A stretch of DNA of 56,153 bases. Origin: Modicisalibacter coralii. Lineage in GTDB: Bacteria; Pseudomonadota; Gammaproteobacteria; Pseudomonadales; Halomonadaceae. Location: NCBI RefSeq assembly GCF_004117855.1, contig NZ_QWBW01000028.1, positions 1 to 56,153 on the forward strand, in the 5' to 3' direction. Below the pieces are notes generated by a model, which was not told the origin of the DNA, ran no database searches, and saw only the letters and a program-made list of their open reading frames with translations. Positions 28,195 to 50,585 of this stretch are shown here, in pieces. The translations under genes were made by a program, and so were the position numbers. Position 1 is the first letter of the stretch. The number at the start of each line of letters is the position of its first letter.

Positions 28195-30429
28195 ATGCAA
28201 CTGCCCCCCATTCCCGACAACGAAGCGCAGCGTCTCGAGGCGCTGCACCGCCTGGAATTGCTGGACACGCTGCCGGATACGGCGTTCGACCAGTTGACCG
28301 AACTGGCCGCCCGGGTCTTCGACGTCCCCGTGGTGCTGGTGTCGCTGGTCGACACGGCGCGCCAGTGGTTCAAGTCGGCCCACGGCCTGGATTGCCGGGA
28401 GACCACCCGCGACGTCTCCTTCTGCGCGCACGCGGTCACCGCGGACCGCCCGCTGATCGTCGAGGATGCCCACGCCGACAGGCGCTTCGCCGACAATCCG
28501 CTGGTCGTCGACGACCCGCACATCCGCTTCTACGCCGGCCAGCCGTTGCACACGGCCGAGGGTCAGCCGATCGGCACCCTGTGCCTGATCGATCGTCGGC
28601 CGCGCGAACTCGACGCCGGCCAGCGTGAATGTCTGGCATTGCTTGCCGCCCAGGCCGAGGAGTTGATCCGCCTGCATTTGGCACACCTCGCACGACGAGA
28701 CAACGAGCGTCGGCTGCAGCGCAAACGGGCGTTGCTTAAGGTGCTGCATCAGGGCATCACCGACTATCGGGCGCTGATGTCGGGCGAACGCCTCTGGCAC
28801 TTCCTGCTGGAGGCGCTGCGCGAACTGACCCAGAGCGACTACGCGCTGATCGGCGAGGTGCTGTACGACGACAATACGCCGGCGCTCAAGATCCATGCCA
28901 TCACCGACCTGACGTGGAGCGACGAATCGCGCCGCTTGATGGAGCGCCTGCAATCCGGTGACATGCTGCTCGGCAACCCCGATAGCCTGCTGGGCCGGGC
29001 CTTCGCCCACGGCGACACCGTGATCACCGACGATCTGGCCAATCATCCCCGTCGCGGCGGCTTCCCGCCCGGGCACCCGCCGCTGTACAACTATCTGGGC
29101 GTGCCGATCGTCCATGACGGCCGGGTGATCGGCATGTACGCCACCGCCAACAGCGCCGAGGGCTATTCGCCGGAGACCGTGGAGTGGCTGGAGCCGTTCA
29201 ACGCCACCTGTGCGCTGCTGATCAACCTCTACCGGCAATTCTCCGAGCGCGACCGCATCGAGCGCGATATCGCCCAGGCCCGCGACCTGGCGGAGAGCGC
29301 CAGCCGCGCCAAGAGCGAGTTCCTGTCGGCGATGAGCCATGAGTTGCGCACGCCGCTCAACGCCATCCTGGGATTCGCCCAGTTGCTGGCCAGCGGCCGC
29401 CGCGACCCGCTCTCGGCGCGCCAGCAGCGTCAGGTCGCCCAGATCCGCAGCAGCGGCGAGCACCTGCTGACCCTGATCAACGATATCCTCGATCTGGCCC
29501 GTATCGAAGCCGGTCGCATGACGCTGTCGCTCGAGCCGGTTTGCCTCGCGGCCGTCTGTCGCGAGGCCATGGAACTCCTATCGCCGCTGGCCCGGGACGC
29601 CGGCATCGCGCTGCAGGCCCCCGCTCTGCAGGGGCCGACGTTGGTGCGTGCCGATGCCACCCGGCTCAAGCAGGTACTGCTCAACCTGCTGTCCAACGCC
29701 ATCAAGTACAACCGCCCGCAGGGCCGGGTCGCCCTCGCCATCGAGGTACACGCCGATACCGTTCGGCTGAGCGTCGAGGACACCGGCAGCGGCGTCGACG
29801 CAGAGCGCCTCGACGAACTGTTCGAACCCTTCAACCGACTGGGGGCCGAAAGCAGCACCATCGAGGGTACCGGGATCGGCCTGGCGCTGACGCGCCAGCT
29901 GGTCGAACGGATGCACGGGCGGATCGGCGTGGAAAGCGAACCGGGCCGGGGCAGCCGTTTCTGGTTCGAACTGGAGCGCGCCATCGATGACGCCCCGGCC
30001 GCCGACGACGAAGCCTGCACGCCAGCGCCGCTGACTGCCAAGCCGCCGCGACGGGTTCTCTACATCGAGGACAACCCCGCCAACCAGCGGCTGATGGAAG
30101 ATCTCTTCGACGAGTTCGAGGGACTGTCACTGTACTGCGCCCCCACGGCCGAACTGGGCATCGACCTGGCCGCCTCGCTGGGCCCCGACCTGATCCTGAT
30201 GGATATCCACCTACCGGGCATGAACGGTCATGCGGCGTGCAAAGCGCTGGCCTCGCGTCAAACGACCCGCGAGATCCCGGTCATCGCCCTGTCCGCCAAC
30301 GCCATGACCACCGACATCCATCACGGCATGGCCGCCGGATTCCGGGCCTATCTCACCAAGCCCGTGGAGATCGGCGCGTTGCGTGCCGCCATCACTGCCT
30401 GCTTCATGGAGGACGCCAGCAATGCCTGA
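28195..30429 (+). CDS. GAF-GAF hybrid histidine kinase with receiver domain
   Basis: 744 residues, cytoplasmic. The first GAF domain (residues 1-160) shares FADNPLVVDDPHIRFYAGQPL with the kinase at 22501-24927. A second GAF-like domain covers about 190-370. HisKA has AMSHELRTPLNAILG with His382, and HATPase_c has NLLSNAIKYNRPQG and GTGIGLALTRQL. The C-terminal receiver has LYIEDNPAN and phospho-acceptor Asp670 in LILMDIHLPGMNG. The ATG at 28195 gives the family N-terminus; in-frame ATGs at 28147 and 28099 are possible. Overlaps the next gene by 8 bp. Confidence 0.9.
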   Translation: MQLPPIPDNEAQRLEALHRLELLDTLPDTAFDQLTELAARVFDVPVVLVSLVDTARQWFKSAHGLDCRETTRDVSFCAHAVTADRPLIVEDAHADRRFADNPLVVDDPHIRFYAGQPLHTAEGQPIGTLCLIDRRPRELDAGQRECLALLAAQAEELIRLHLAHLARRDNERRLQRKRALLKVLHQGITDYRALMSGERLWHFLLEALRELTQSDYALIGEVLYDDNTPALKIHAITDLTWSDESRRLMERLQSGDMLLGNPDSLLGRAFAHGDTVITDDLANHPRRGGFPPGHPPLYNYLGVPIVHDGRVIGMYATANSAEGYSPETVEWLEPFNATCALLINLYRQFSERDRIERDIAQARDLAESASRAKSEFLSAMSHELRTPLNAILGFAQLLASGRRDPLSARQQRQVAQIRSSGEHLLTLINDILDLARIEAGRMTLSLEPVCLAAVCREAMELLSPLARDAGIALQAPALQGPTLVRADATRLKQVLLNLLSNAIKYNRPQGRVALAIEVHADTVRLSVEDTGSGVDAERLDELFEPFNRLGAESSTIEGTGIGLALTRQLVERMHGRIGVESEPGRGSRFWFELERAIDDAPAADDEACTPAPLTAKPPRRVLYIEDNPANQRLMEDLFDEFEGLSLYCAPTAELGIDLAASLGPDLILMDIHLPGMNGHAACKALASRQTTREIPVIALSANAMTTDIHHGMAAGFRAYLTKPVEIGALRAAITACFMEDASNA

Positions 30430-39842: not shown

Positions 39843-40205
39843 TTAGGCCGGCTCCTCGTCCAGCAAGGTTTCATAGGGAATATGCAGCCCCTTGTGCAGG
39901 TTCCGCACCATGCGCAAGCTCAACCCGCGCCGGCGATTCAGGACCTCCGAAACCCGGCCACTGGAGCCGATGAAACGCTCCAGGTCGCGCGGTGTCAGGC
40001 CCTGCTGCTCCATGCGAAACTTGATAGCCTCGATGGGATCGGAAGGCCCGACAGGATAATGCTCATCCTCATAGCGCTCGACGAGGATCGACAACACTTC
40101 CAACTCGTCGGCCTCTTCACTGCCCTCCTCTGCGTCCCACAGCACCTCCATCCGTGCGAAGGTGCGATCCAGGTCAGCGTCACTGCGAATCGGCTGGATG
40201 TTCAT
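39843..40205 (-). CDS. higA: HigA-type antitoxin with XRE-like helix-turn-helix
   Basis: 120 residues. The N-terminal half is acidic (DAEEGSEEADELEVLSILVERYEDEHYP). The C-terminal helix-turn-helix (LTPRDLERFIGSSGRVSEVLNRRRGLSLRMVRNLHKGL) is typical of HigA antitoxins, which neutralise HigB and repress their operon. It begins directly after the toxin stop codon; the toxin-first order is that of higBA modules. The likely operator is the twin palindrome at 40509-40548. Confidence 0.9.
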   Translation of the reverse strand: MNIQPIRSDADLDRTFARMEVLWDAEEGSEEADELEVLSILVERYEDEHYPVGPSDPIEAIKFRMEQQGLTPRDLERFIGSSGRVSEVLNRRRGLSLRMVRNLHKGLHIPYETLLDEEPA

Positions 40206-40502
40206 CTATATGGTCTCCGCATCTACCTGATCATACTGCTCGTGCGTGCCCACAAAGCGTACCCATGCGATCTGCTGCGAGTAGCGGATCGACACGATGA
40301 CCCGGTACTTGTTGCCGCCGATGTTGAACACCACGCGGCTCCCCTTAAGGATACTTGCCGTGCGAATCTCCGCTTTCAGCGCCTGCGGCGTCGGCCAACT
40401 GGCCTTCGTCATCATGTGATACCACTCCGTCAGCGGTCGCTCGGCATCGGCATAGCCTTTCTCCCAGAACTCCCGCAACGCGCGTTTCGCGATGACTCTC
40501 AC
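40206..40502 (-). CDS. higB: HigB-type toxin (RelE superfamily mRNA interferase)
   Basis: 98 residues from the GTG at 40502: MRVIAKRALREFWEKGYADAERPLTEW at the N-terminus, then SRVVFNIGGNKYRVIVSIRYSQQIAWVRFVGTHEQYDQ, the strand-rich core of HigB/RelE ribosome-dependent mRNA interferases. The GTG follows GGGAGGAGGTT closely. A longer frame to 40562 would read through the operator palindromes, so the short start is preferred. It is translated directly before higA, with no gap. Confidence 0.88.
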   Translation of the reverse strand: MRVIAKRALREFWEKGYADAERPLTEWYHMMTKASWPTPQALKAEIRTASILKGSRVVFNIGGNKYRVIVSIRYSQQIAWVRFVGTHEQYDQVDAETI

Positions 40503-40508
40503 AACCTC

Positions 40509-40548
40509 CTCCCTTTTTGGGAGAACATAAACCCTCCCACTTTGGGAG
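40509..40548. promoter_or_regulatory. Twin palindromic operator of higBA
   Basis: CTCCCTTTTTGGGAG (40509-40523) and CTCCCACTTTGGGAG (40534-40548): two copies of CTCCC-N5-GGGAG with centres 25 bp apart, just upstream of the toxin start. The first also contains the ribosome site, so repressor binding would block the promoter region. It is the expected HigA autoregulatory operator. Confidence 0.7.
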
Positions 40549-40727
40549 TCAAGCCGTGCCACTCATTGACGAAGGCTTGGGGCTGGTACAGCCTCACCCT
40601 TGAGACGGGCGGCAAGCGTCGGCGCATCAACATTACCACCGCCAAGGCATCAGGGTCGGTGAAGATACCGACACGGCCGACGTAGGCAGCCTCTCGGCGC
40701 CCCATGCCGCGCCATTTCAACAAAGAG

Positions 40728-40895
40728 AAGGCCCGTCCTCGTCGAGGCACGGGCCTTCAATCGCTGCGTTTCCTTGCCAGCTCACCACGAGCTTCCTGCT
40801 CGTGCCTCCTTGGTCGTTCGGGCTTCCTGTTCCCGCTCTTCCCTGACAGGCGTCCTTGCCTGGAACCACGATACGCGCCCCTGGCCGCCATCGAG
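40728..40895 (-). ncRNA. Candidate RsmY/RsmZ/CsrB-like regulatory RNA (minus strand)
   Basis: Read on the minus strand there are six GGA motifs: CAAGGACG (40851-40858), CAGGGAAG (40838-40845), CAGGAAG (40823-40829), CAAGGAGG (40805-40812), CAGGAAG (40792-40798) and CAAGGAAA (40769-40776). Three sit in loops: CAGGC/GCCTG with loop AAGGAC (40847-40862), CACGAGC/GCTCGTG with loop AGGAA (40786-40804), and GCTG/CAGC (40763-40781). It ends at a terminator, AAGGCCCGT...ACGGGCCTT (40757-40728) followed by CTCTTTG. This is the design of RNAs that sequester CsrA/RsmA. The 5' end is not defined. Confidence 0.75.
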
Positions 40896-40923
40896 AGATA
40901 ACATGGGTTATTCAAGGTAAAAA

Positions 40924-40941
40924 ATAATCAATCTGGATTAT
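40924..40941. promoter_or_regulatory. Inverted repeat between the RNA gene and the Crp/Fnr gene
   Basis: ATAATC-N6-GATTAT, a perfect 6-bp palindrome in an AT-rich stretch, suited to bind a dimeric regulator of either the minus-strand RNA or the Crp/Fnr gene 125 bp away. It contains ATCAA, half of an FNR site. Confidence 0.4.
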
Positions 40942-41066
40942 CGGGTTTGCCATCGCCGTGATTGAGGTTCAGGGTGAAGGGGACGTTCACCGCTCGGCAT
41001 CGCGACTCAAGGCCTCTGCCTCCTTCGCCTCCCGCAAACCGTGGCCCCACGGCACATAGGCCCCAC

Positions 41067-41834
41067 ATGGCGACAGCACCTCAAGAAGTCTGCCTGACAG
41101 ACAATCTGATGCATTTCATGGCACTGTCCGACACCGACATGCATCTGCTGGCCGAACTGGAGCAGACGCCCCAGCCGGTTTCTCGAGGCCAAACGCTCTG
41201 GAAGGCCGAGGACGTCCCCCGGACCCTGTACACCCTGCGCCGTGGCTGGGCCTACAGCATGCACCGCTCCGAGAGCGGCGAAGGGCAGGTGCTGGATATC
41301 TTCCTGCCCGGCGACCTGATGGGGATTCGCGAACTCACCTTGCCGGCTCATTCGACCGACGTCGTCATGCTGACATCCGGCGTCGTCTGTCCCTTTCCCG
41401 CCGAGCGGCTGCTCGACATATTCCAGCATTCCCCGTCGCTGACCCTGGCCATCCATGCCGCCGCCGCCCGGCAGCAGGTCATCATCAGCAAGCGCCTGGT
41501 CAATATTCTGCGTCATGATGCCCGGGCACGCATCGCCCACTTCGTGCTCGAGCTTTACTATCGCCTCAAGCGCGTGGACGAATCGGTTCACCGAGACTTC
41601 TCGGTGCCGCTACTGCAGAGCGACTTCGGCAAGCTGCTGGGCATGACCAAGGTGCATGTCAGTCGCACCCTGGGCGAAATGGAGAGCCAGGGCCTGTTGC
41701 GCAAGACCCGCAAGGACATTCAGATCCTGGATCTCGAGCGATTGCTGGAGATCTCCGCCTTCGACCCTATGAAGCTGACCGATCAGCTCAACCCCACCCT
41801 GACGGCGGCGCTCTTTCCCTCGGCGCCGACCTGA
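41067..41834 (+). CDS. Crp/Fnr family transcriptional regulator
   Basis: 255 residues. A cyclic-nucleotide-binding-like domain spans residues 20-130 (GEGQVLDIFLPGDLMGIREL), then the dimer helix and a Crp-type winged helix (LLQSDFGKLLGMTKVHVSRTLGEMESQGLL, residues 190-225). There is no N-terminal Cys cluster as in FNR, so it does not sense oxygen through an Fe-S centre. The cAMP Arg/Ser pair is also not evident. The ATG at 41067 was chosen because it begins the domain. It lies between two Rsm-like RNA genes. Confidence 0.9.
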   Translation: MATAPQEVCLTDNLMHFMALSDTDMHLLAELEQTPQPVSRGQTLWKAEDVPRTLYTLRRGWAYSMHRSESGEGQVLDIFLPGDLMGIRELTLPAHSTDVVMLTSGVVCPFPAERLLDIFQHSPSLTLAIHAAAARQQVIISKRLVNILRHDARARIAHFVLELYYRLKRVDESVHRDFSVPLLQSDFGKLLGMTKVHVSRTLGEMESQGLLRKTRKDIQILDLERLLEISAFDPMKLTDQLNPTLTAALFPSAPT

Positions 41835-41854
41835 CCGAACACGGGTCAAAACAA

Positions 41855-41876
41855 GACCCGGCTCGATGACCGGGTC
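41855..41876 (+). terminator. Hairpin after the Crp/Fnr gene
   Basis: GACCCGG/CCGGGTC stem with an 8-base loop, 20 bp after the stop codon. Only a weak T-rich tail follows, so it is a possible terminator. Confidence 0.45.
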
Positions 41877-42115
41877 AATGGTCTTGCGTTCCTGGACAAC
41901 TTCCACCGGCGCCCCTGCCGGTGCTTCCCTGGTCAACGCTCCCTGGATGCCCCTCCCTGGAGGTCATGCCAGCACCAGACTAGTCGAGACACGCCAGGGC
42001 CGTCTTGATCCAACTCAAGGCGCGCGCCGAGAGACACCGGGCCGCAGTGGCGAGACGCAAAAGGCCACCGCATGCGCCACTATGGCGCCGAGATCGGGCA
42101 GCGACGCCCCGGGCG

Positions 42116-42490: not shown

Positions 42491-42779
42491 ACCACTGCCC
42501 TCCGCTACTGGTTCTTTACCTCATCTATCGGCATTGTCGGAATCGACTTGAGGCACCTCGCGCGACCGGAGCATCCGGAACGAGGGCCGAGCGGCCAAGC
42601 TGCCGAAATGGACAGGCATTATTCCTGGCGATCACGTCGCCGCGTGGATTGCACTCCACGCCATCGCCCCGCCCGCGAATCGTCGCTGACACGCTTTCAG
42701 AGTGGCCCATGTCATTCACCGCCACGCTGGAACGCCCCTCTATTAATTATGATTAGTATTTAATCTATGTTATGTAGCC

Positions 42780-42946
42780 AAGCAAATTAAACGTGAGACC
42801 GTGTGTCGCTGAGCAAGGAGGTATCAACCCGGCACCAGACATTCGCCCCAGGGACGGGCCGATGGACCACGGAGGGTTGTTCAAGGAAGCTCACGGGCAG
42901 CAGTGACGCACCGCCCATCAGAACCCGGCCTCGGCCGGGTTCTTTT
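42780..42946 (+). ncRNA. Candidate RsmY/RsmZ-like regulatory RNA (plus strand)
   Basis: Four exact CANGGANG motifs, the CsrA/RsmA-binding signature: CAAGGAGG (42814-42821), CAGGGACG (42849-42856), CACGGAGG (42868-42875) and CAAGGAAG (42882-42889), plus one more GGA at 42864. Two lie in loops: GCCC/GGGC with loop CAGGGAC, and ACC/GGT with loop ACGGAG. A stem CGTGAG (42792)/CTCACG (42890) can close the region. It ends with a perfect terminator (GAACCCGGCC/GGCCGGGTTC, then TCTTTT, 42921-42946). An AT-rich stretch with TATGTT upstream (42750-42775) could hold the promoter. The 5' end is estimated. Confidence 0.75.
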
Positions 42947-43180
42947 CGTTCGCCGGGCGCCTGCGGCGCCAATCGGGAAAAAGTTCCTTCCCACCGAAAT
43001 CTCCATGCGCCCGTGGGCCATCCAGACGGGTTTTGTGGAAGGGAATTCATGTCCATAGCGTTGGCTCAACGTTTCACGCTGATCCGTAATGAACCGACAA
43101 TTTCCGGGCGTCAGCATCAATCAAGAGTATTTCACTAAACTAACCGCAGTTAACTAGTTTATCCGAGGCTATTACACGAT

Positions 43181-43227: not shown

Positions 43228-43340
43228 CCTTTGGGGAGTAGCCGACTTCCGACAGCCTCGGAAGTGCCTGCATCAACAAGCTCGACGCGCTGCGTCGTGG
43301 TGCAGGCGACCGTCACCGGTTGGCGAGACCGAAGGTATGT
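43228..43340 (+). promoter_or_regulatory. yybP-ykoY manganese riboswitch
   Basis: The conserved landmarks appear in order: CCTTTGGGGAGTAGCCGACT at the 5' end, CATCAACA in the middle, GGCGACCGTCACCGG, then TTGGCGAGACCGAAGG. They match the yybP-ykoY aptamer as found before mntP in E. coli. An 8-bp hairpin (ACCGGGCA 43353-43360 with TGCCCGGT 43382-43389) follows and ends just before the mntP ribosome site, a plausible expression platform. Manganese binding should raise mntP expression. Confidence 0.9.
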
Positions 43341-43402
43341 CACGCGTTCCAGACCGGGCACGCGAGGCATGCCTTTCTGTCTGCCCGGTACGGAGACGCG
43401 TC

Positions 43403-43975
43403 ATGACCCTGGCTTCCACCCTGTTTCTCGCCTTCGCCATGTCCACGGATGCCTTCGCCGCCGCCGTCGGCAAGGGTGCCGCCCTGGAGCGCCCGCATTT
43501 TCGAGAAGCCCTGCGCACCGGCCTGATCTTCGGCACCATCGAAGCCACCACGCCGGTGATCGGCTGGAGCGTGGGGTTGGCTGCCTCGCGCTATGTCGCC
43601 CAGTGGGACCACTGGATCGCCTTCACCCTGCTGCTGCTGCTCGGCGGCCACATGATCAAGGAGGGCCTTTCCCCCGTCGACCGGGAAACCGCGCAGCGCC
43701 CCCACCAGCACTCCTTCCTGCGACTCGCCATGACCGGTTTCGCCACCAGCATCGATGCCATGGCCGTGGGCATCGGCCTGGCCTTCGTCGACGCCAACAT
43801 CGTCTCCACGGCGCTGTTCATCGGCCTCGCCACGCTGATCATGGTCACCCTGGGCGTCCTGCTGGGCCGGGTCCTGGGGCGCGTGGTGGGCCAGCGGGCC
43901 GAGTGCATCGGCGGCGTGATACTGATCGGCATCGGCTGCCTGATCCTGGTCGAGCACCTGGGTCTGGTCGGTTGA
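43403..43975 (+). CDS. mntP: Manganese efflux pump
   Basis: 190 residues with six hydrophobic helices in two repeats, exporting Mn2+ across the inner membrane. The conserved acidic membrane motifs are [15 protein letters not shown] (residues 13-27) and [17 protein letters not shown] (about 113-129), both characteristic of MntP/YebN. The ATG at 43403 follows CGGAGACGCGTC. Its leader is the yybP-ykoY riboswitch, which independently supports the assignment. Confidence 0.96.
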
Positions 43976-50024: not shown

Positions 50025-50585
50025 ATGCGCCTGCTCATCCTGCTGTCATTGCTGTGGGCGATGCCCGCGCTGGCCTTCGACCTCGATGACCTGCAGCACA
50101 GGCTCGCCGCCACCCCCGATCTCCAGGGACGCTTCGTGCAACAGCGCCACCTGGCCGATCTCGACACCGACCTGACCAGCCGCGGACGCTTCCGCTACCA
50201 GCGCGACACCCGGGTGGTGTGGATCCTCGAGCAGCCGGTCGAGGATCGGATGGTCTTCACCCCGGAGGATGCCGGACGGCTCAGCGAGGCCGACGGCGAG
50301 CGCGGCAACGACGACCGCCGCCGCCAGCAGGCCGCCACCCTGCTGATGAACCTGCTCGACGGCGACTGGCAGGCCCTCGAGACACGTTTCGCGATTACTC
50401 TCGACGGCGACGCCGAAGCCTGGCAGGCGACCCTCGAGCCGCGTCAGGACGCACTGCGCCGTTACCTGAGCCGGATTCGTCTCGCCGGGGGTCGCTACGT
50501 CGAGCGTCTGGCCATGCACGCCGCCAACGGCGACGTGCTGACGGTACGCTTCAGCGACCAGCGCCCGCTCGATGACGCCCGCTGA
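50025..50585 (+). CDS. LolA-like outer-membrane lipoprotein carrier (ApeL-like)
   Basis: 186 residues with a signal peptide (MRLLILLSLLWAMPALA), so periplasmic. The mature protein has the LolA-like LQGRFVQQRHLADLDTDLTSRGRFRYQRDTRVVWIL. It probably shuttles the lipidated polyene from the inner to the outer membrane. The ATG at 50025 has AAGGAG upstream. The 100 bp between this gene and the acyltransferase hold no gene; in E. coli a thioesterase gene occupies this place. Overlaps the MMPL gene by 14 bp. Confidence 0.88.
   Translation: MRLLILLSLLWAMPALAFDLDDLQHRLAATPDLQGRFVQQRHLADLDTDLTSRGRFRYQRDTRVVWILEQPVEDRMVFTPEDAGRLSEADGERGNDDRRRQQAATLLMNLLDGDWQALETRFAITLDGDAEAWQATLEPRQDALRRYLSRIRLAGGRYVERLAMHAANGDVLTVRFSDQRPLDDAR

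Follow-up and report, generated by a model that had tools for sequence, protein, structure and literature searches.

The RsmX, RsmY and RsmZ RNAs of Pseudomonas and the RsmZ1-7 and RsmY RNAs of Azotobacter are 100-150 nt long, carry about 6-10 GGA motifs, end in a terminator and occur as several paralogues per genome. Their hairpin loops contain AGGA, with AAGGA between the hairpins (RsmY alignment), and many copies are preceded by a GacA-type box, given as TGTAAG-N6-CTTACA in the accessible part of one report (PMC4950607). Excerpts of other papers mention eight Rsm RNA copies for A. vinelandii (PMC12923157) and seven for P. syringae (PMC6715622), as well as a duplication of rsmX in P. brassicacearum (PMC7911923). 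The CsrB and CsrC RNAs of Enterobacteria likewise present many GGA loops. Halomonas anticariensis, which belongs to the same bacterial family as the DNA analysed here, has a GacS/GacA pathway with CsrA, and the sponge RNA of this pathway is tabulated as 'Unknown' in the available section of a 2020 review (PMC7366521). CsrA binding has been modelled in Halomonas hydrothermalis, and the available part of that paper names no sponge for this species (PMC12889724). We found no description of a Halomonas sponge RNA in those portions of the open-licence literature that were at hand.

An inspection of a 56,153-base stretch of DNA (the window) indicated a locus, copy A, which we consider with a probability of roughly 90% to be the gene for a regulatory RNA, about 140 nt in length, which acts like CsrB/RsmZ. 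The functional kind is already known; the Rfam models tried do not recognise this RNA, and the copy number of its family is unusually large. The features of the locus are as follows.

40720..40868, minus strand: candidate CsrB/RsmZ-like sRNA gene (copy A), about 140-150 nt, with a predicted 5' end near 40860-40868
40899..40910, minus strand: palindrome TAACCCATGTTA (TAAC-N4-GTTA, 8/8) upstream of copy A
40868..40873, minus strand: possible -10 hexamer TATCGT, weak, picked by eye
40847..40862, minus strand: GGA hairpin 1, CAGGC-AAGGAC-GCCTG, in the fold of 40868-40728 and not in the longer fold
40819..40835, minus strand: GGA hairpin 2, CGGG-AACAGGAAG-CCCG, in both folds
40786..40804, minus strand: GGA hairpin 3, CACGAGC-AGGAA-GCTCGTG, the family core, from the fold and from covariation
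40763..40781, minus strand: GGA hairpin 4, GCTG-GCAAGGAAACG-CAGC, in both folds, outside the covariance model
40727..40758, minus strand: intrinsic terminator stem-loop, GAAGGCCCGT...ACGGGCCTTC, then TCTTTGTT, from the fold, with a bulged, G+C-strong stem

The minus strand holds eight GGA motifs within 120 nt (40736-40855), a density matched nowhere else on either strand of the window (mean 1.34, sd 1.19). Seven of them lie within 100 nt, which is equalled at one other site (50177-50283, plus strand). The dense GGA noticed in the sequence-only reading, counted there as six in about 90 bases, is therefore real. The minimum free energy (MFE) fold of 40868-40728 places GGA in four hairpin loops, AAGGAC, AACAGGAAG, AGGAA and GCAAGGAAACG, with an energy z of -2.39 and 5 of 200 shuffles folding as well, a moderate result. 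When 32 bases upstream and 8 downstream are added, the AAGGAC hairpin disappears from the MFE structure (z -1.89, 10/200 shuffles) and the other three GGA hairpins remain; the AAGGAC loop thus depends on where the RNA starts. All three GGA loops of the sequence-only reading are found in the shorter fold, together with AACAGGAAG as a fourth, and the AAGGAC loop among them does not survive in the longer one. Since the shuffle control on the single sequence is moderate and the 5' hairpin is lost in the longer fold, the case rests on relatives. The terminator placed at the end of the stretch by the same reading is borne out by a strong G+C stem at 40758-40727 that runs into TCTTTGTT. A simple terminator scan did not report it, supposedly because the stem has a bulge.

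A protein-coding reading of copy A was rejected. The overlapping ORFs encode 40-52 aa on the minus strand and, in one case, 65 aa on the plus strand. All three frames of the sRNA strand hold a stop in copy A and in its orthologue L003, and one sense frame is open over 154 nt in the orthologue L004; antisense frames are partly open in all three, differently in each. As had been anticipated from the single sequence, no open frame is common to them.

Copy A matches DNA in 10 of the 58 genomes searched, its own included. A paralogue (L002/L069) on contig C6 of its own genome shows 81% identity across 130 nt of the query. The two orthologues, L003 in M. tunisiensis LIT2 (G003, contig C1) and L004 in a second genome (G002), are syntenic and adjoin the same divergent regulator gene.

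41067..41834, plus strand: Crp/FNR-family regulator gene, divergent from copy A, with PF13545 and PF00027 above cut-off

The best NCBIfam match of this regulator is the Fnr model, at 82.9 bits and below the cut-off of 228, and tblastn finds it kept beside L003 (89% identity) and L004 (79%). GGA bases are identical to those of copy A at 23/24 positions in L003 and 22/24 in L004, compared with 110/132 and 95/132 of the remaining columns (one-sided Fisher p 0.09 and 0.03). Hairpin 1 has the same stem with an ATGGAT loop in L003 (by eye), and the counterpart in L069 is CAGCGA-AGGAA-TCGCTG. The palindrome scores 8/8 in L004 and 7/8 in L003. The loss of GGA loops from relatives with conserved flanks, which the sequence-only reading had named as evidence against an RNA gene of the CsrB/RsmZ kind, did not occur in the two syntenic relatives found; the Crp/FNR flank and the GGA bases are both kept, which supports that reading.

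Covariance model R1 was built from 15 matches and run on 58 genomes, and a second model, R2, was built from 89 matches. Copy A scores 122.8 bits with R1 over 40720-40846 (it is part of the R1 seed) and 107.9 bits with R2. In 87 distinct sequences, all six modelled pairs of hairpin 3, the core GGA hairpin, change on both sides and 97.7% of its cells are paired; in the family terminator helix 10 of 12 modelled pairs change on both sides, with 93.3% of cells paired. The alignment behind these pair counts was fitted to the structure and so favours it somewhat. The covariation score is 0.452, compared with 0.222 for shuffled columns (0/500 reach 0.452) and at most 0.122 when the partner is slid. 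In 15 aligned members, the invariant positions are mainly the GGA in loops and between hairpins. For the fold and promoter counts we used 90 member rows, from which one long array (L071) was dropped and in which second matches inside two arrays (L090, L116) are included. These rows hold 620 GGA, 6.9 each, a richness that is partly selected because the seeds of R1 and R2 were GGA-rich matches to copy A. Of these GGA, 40.8% fall in MFE hairpin loops, compared with 12.7% in 900 dinucleotide shuffles (4.5 GGA each).

Copy A very probably belongs to a so far uncatalogued RNA family, of which a single genome of Halomonas-type bacteria can carry as many as about 17 copies. With R1, 25 of the 58 genomes have a match at E 0.01 (the E-values of both models are rough). 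Matches below 40 bits were not counted, and at 40 bits or more there are 89 distinct loci in the 13 genomes whose loci were fetched, a set that leaves out such matches in G004, G008, G016 and G018. They are distributed as 17 in G005, 13 each in G001 (Halomonas sp. McH1-25) and G010, 9 in G027, 8 in G035, 7 in G009, 6 in G003, 4 each in the genome of the window (G000) and in G002, 3 in G007, 2 each in G014 and G023, and 1 in G025. In its own genome, copy A is one of at least four candidate sponge-RNA loci. No match above 24.1 bits was found with R1 in 21 genomes of other families. Within the family of the window, R2, at the similarly rough E of 1e-5 or better, finds matches in 105 of 201 genomes and 10 of 24 genera, with 16 in G005, 14 in G010 and 13 in G001; this survey uses strict filters that lose weak matches, and one array can give two matches. 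In a sample of the class, six of 184 other genomes have R2 matches, at 26-38 bits, and the three of these that were inspected were unconvincing.

Some candidates were set aside. L137 (R1 29.7 bits) has no GGA within the match and was not counted, and L158-L160, from outside the family, hold 2-4 GGA in the match and are by eye unconvincing, lacking the GGA hairpin pattern. Three long GGA-rich RNAs with weak R1 scores of 37-43 bits (L033-L035, in G008, G004 and G012) probably represent another branch of the sponge family, judged by eye. Such longer GGA-rich RNAs exist in some genomes whose R1 scores are only weak, so that copy numbers there may be lower bounds. In G010 (L112; contig C30, 4900-8700), four family members lie on one strand within about 3 kb. 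The genome of the window has an array (L071; contig C35, about 29276-29688, minus strand) that contains 31 GGA, spans about 412 nt and is, as we take it, CsrB-like in size, and the sequence upstream of it resembles by eye that of two short copies, L013 (G002) and L016 (G003). A subclass of members (L068, L072, L076, L078) has a core loop AGGGG or GAGGG instead of AGGA; by eye, these have no palindrome and share a TAGYCT element before the GGAs instead.

The Rfam comparison proposed with the sequence-only reading was negative. With Rfam 15 at gathering thresholds, copy A has no CsrB/Rsm match, and the sole match in the window is a manganese riboswitch; at relaxed thresholds over 40650-41000, RsmY scores best among the models of the CsrB/Rsm kind, with 14 bits where the cut-off is 57 (E 0.31). 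As all 20 family loci tried are also without a CsrB/Rsm match at gathering thresholds, these models fail to reach this lineage. The family is similar to the Pseudomonas and Azotobacter RNAs in length, GGA number, terminator and paralogy, in having AGGA in hairpin loops and AAGGA between them, and in the GacA-type box on many copies. It differs from them in lacking an Rfam match at threshold, in an additional palindrome (TAAC-N4-GTTA), in the missing GacA box of copy A, in that some copies face an extra csrA gene, and in copy number, with up to 17 loci per genome compared with the eight and seven given in the excerpts cited above for A. vinelandii and P. syringae. The many GGA loops are shared with CsrB and CsrC of Enterobacteria, whereas most family members are short, and neither copy A nor the C35 array has an Rfam match to CsrB or CsrC.

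In family members, the palindrome TAAC-N4-GTTA is usually located 60-70 nt upstream of the start of the model. It was discovered and counted on the same member set, in which it is complete (8/8) in 36 of 90 upstream regions (shuffles 0.0006) and scores at least 7/8 in 59 of 90 within 150 nt (shuffles about 0.047), or in 60 rows within 170 nt. A GacA-type box at 11/12 or 12/12 is present in 42 of the 90 regions (shuffles 0.0022), as counted with the pattern TGTMRG-N6-CYTACA, loosened after some members had been viewed. Both elements occur in 30 rows, the palindrome alone in 30, the box alone in 12 and neither in 18, and the gap from box to palindrome is exactly 8 bp in 22 of the 30 rows with both. 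The presence of a GacA-type box in many family promoters, usually 8 bp upstream of the palindrome, suggests that GacS/GacA probably controls the RNA family in general. No recognisable GacA box precedes copy A (best 7/12 with the loosened pattern), and among the three copies of its genome that were scored only the one on C7 has a good box (11/12). Copy A is probably driven mainly by a putative protein that binds TAAC-N4-GTTA, or by a diverged box. The promoter scan did not report its TATCGT hexamer.

Putative protein partners are encoded in the same genome. A csrA gene is found in all 58 genomes, including that of the window, where the protein itself was read, and the GacA of the latter scores 290 bits against a cut-off of 280. 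GacA (at least 190 bits) is present in all 17 family genomes with R1 matches of at least 40 bits and in 13 of the 20 others (Fisher p 0.009 over 37 family genomes, a statistic that ignores phylogeny). Two genomes, G020 and G029, speak against a strict link: they have no strong GacA, yet contain GGA-bearing R1 matches of about 32 bits, and G020 is also among the family genomes matched by R2. In each of G001, G005 and G010, a member and an additional csrA gene face each other, with the match edges 177-183 nt apart, and in G009 a member and gacA are arranged divergently at a distance of about 420 nt. At two loci, L082 (G005, contig C12) and L096 (G001, contig C23), two csrA genes stand in tandem with the sponge RNA divergent from the first; it is possible that this arrangement is a regulator-sponge module. 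The copy A RNA, if transcribed, would present several GGA-bearing hairpin loops to which CsrA dimers would bind, and the resulting titration of CsrA would free CsrA-repressed mRNAs.

Further features were found on both sides of the Crp/FNR gene and of copy A.

41845..41985, minus strand: copy B, a diverged second member, R2 45.4 bits (rough E 1.1e-10 in the window), R1 35.8 bits, upper end set by eye
42805..42951, plus strand: copy C, a tentative, decayed third member, R2 29.7 bits (rough E 1.4e-6 in the window)
43228-43402, plus strand: yybP-ykoY manganese riboswitch (47.4 bits), directly upstream of mntP
43397-43975, plus strand: mntP (233 bits)
39843-40562, minus strand: HigB-like toxin gene (PF09907), then an ORF without a Pfam match

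Copy B passes 40 bits with R2 and fails to do so with R1. It has five GGA, its own terminator and a hairpin-3 loop AGGGG instead of AGGA, and its orthologue L072 lies beside the same crp gene in G003 (R1 30.6 bits); folded alone, copy B is no better than its shuffles (z -0.55). Copy C is only tentative because its score is below the 40-bit standard, and this score falls within the range of the matches in the six other class-sample genomes. It has five GGA, a terminator at 42920-42943, a palindrome TAATCTATGTTA at 42761-42772 (7/8) and a fold z of -1.01, and a DNA search of 18 other genomes found no relative of it except a 34-nt match at the terminator. The next R2 matches in the window score 13.5 bits (the terminator of copy C on the other strand) and 10.8 bits. 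The pairing of the riboswitch with mntP is expected, and the ORF next to the HigB-like gene is likely its antitoxin, by position.

The position of copy A upstream of the HigB-like toxin gene (domain PF09907), on the same strand and with the terminator in between, would also suit a cis-acting leader or attenuator of this gene and its neighbour (40562-39843, minus strand), with CsrA acting on the operon. We rejected this reading and regard it as extremely improbable because the two genes are not kept with the orthologues: neither ORF was found in the 3-kb loci of L003, L004, the paralogue L002 and four further loci, where the sRNA is kept. Other family copies, moreover, lie in many different places. 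The absence of a GacA box, the weak -10 element and the divergence of the neighbouring copies B and C would fit a decaying, unexpressed paralogue. Such decay appears very improbable, as almost all GGAs are retained in two orthologues together with the stems and the palindrome, and copy A has the top R1 score listed, though as a member of the R1 seed.

That Rfam does not assign copy A would be compatible with a real structured sRNA whose main partner is not CsrA, for example one that acts by base pairing or that titrates another protein. Several observations speak against this and make it very improbable in our view: the invariant part consists chiefly of GGA located in loops and between hairpins, with covarying stems, many promoters carry GacA-type boxes, and in three genomes a member and an additional csrA gene face each other. 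All the above leaves the CsrB/RsmZ-like sponge RNA as our preferred reading of copy A.

The RNA arm that is missing from the Gac/Csr pathway of halophiles has a candidate in the family of copy A, whose members are obvious candidates for the sponge RNA of H. anticariensis. The covariance model finds this family where the Rfam models failed in the loci tried, and it reveals an unusually large paralogue expansion. Bioplastics and exopolysaccharides are made with Halomonas strains, and outputs of this type are elsewhere controlled by Csr/Rsm systems. We tentatively propose, as an idea that is somewhat less likely to hold than to fail, that Halomonadaceae turned one or a few Csr sponges into a dispersed gene family, with up to 17 members per genome, a cluster of four copies in about 3 kb, an array of 31 GGA and modules in which extra csrA genes are faced by a sponge. 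The promoter classes (box and palindrome, palindrome only, box only, neither) would bring in different signals, one of them through a putative palindrome-binding activator, which would be summed on the pool of free CsrA; copy A would then be a palindrome-only, Gac-independent input. The question of why a titration system should have more than ten sponge genes, and whether these might serve as separate signal inputs, is thereby made testable.
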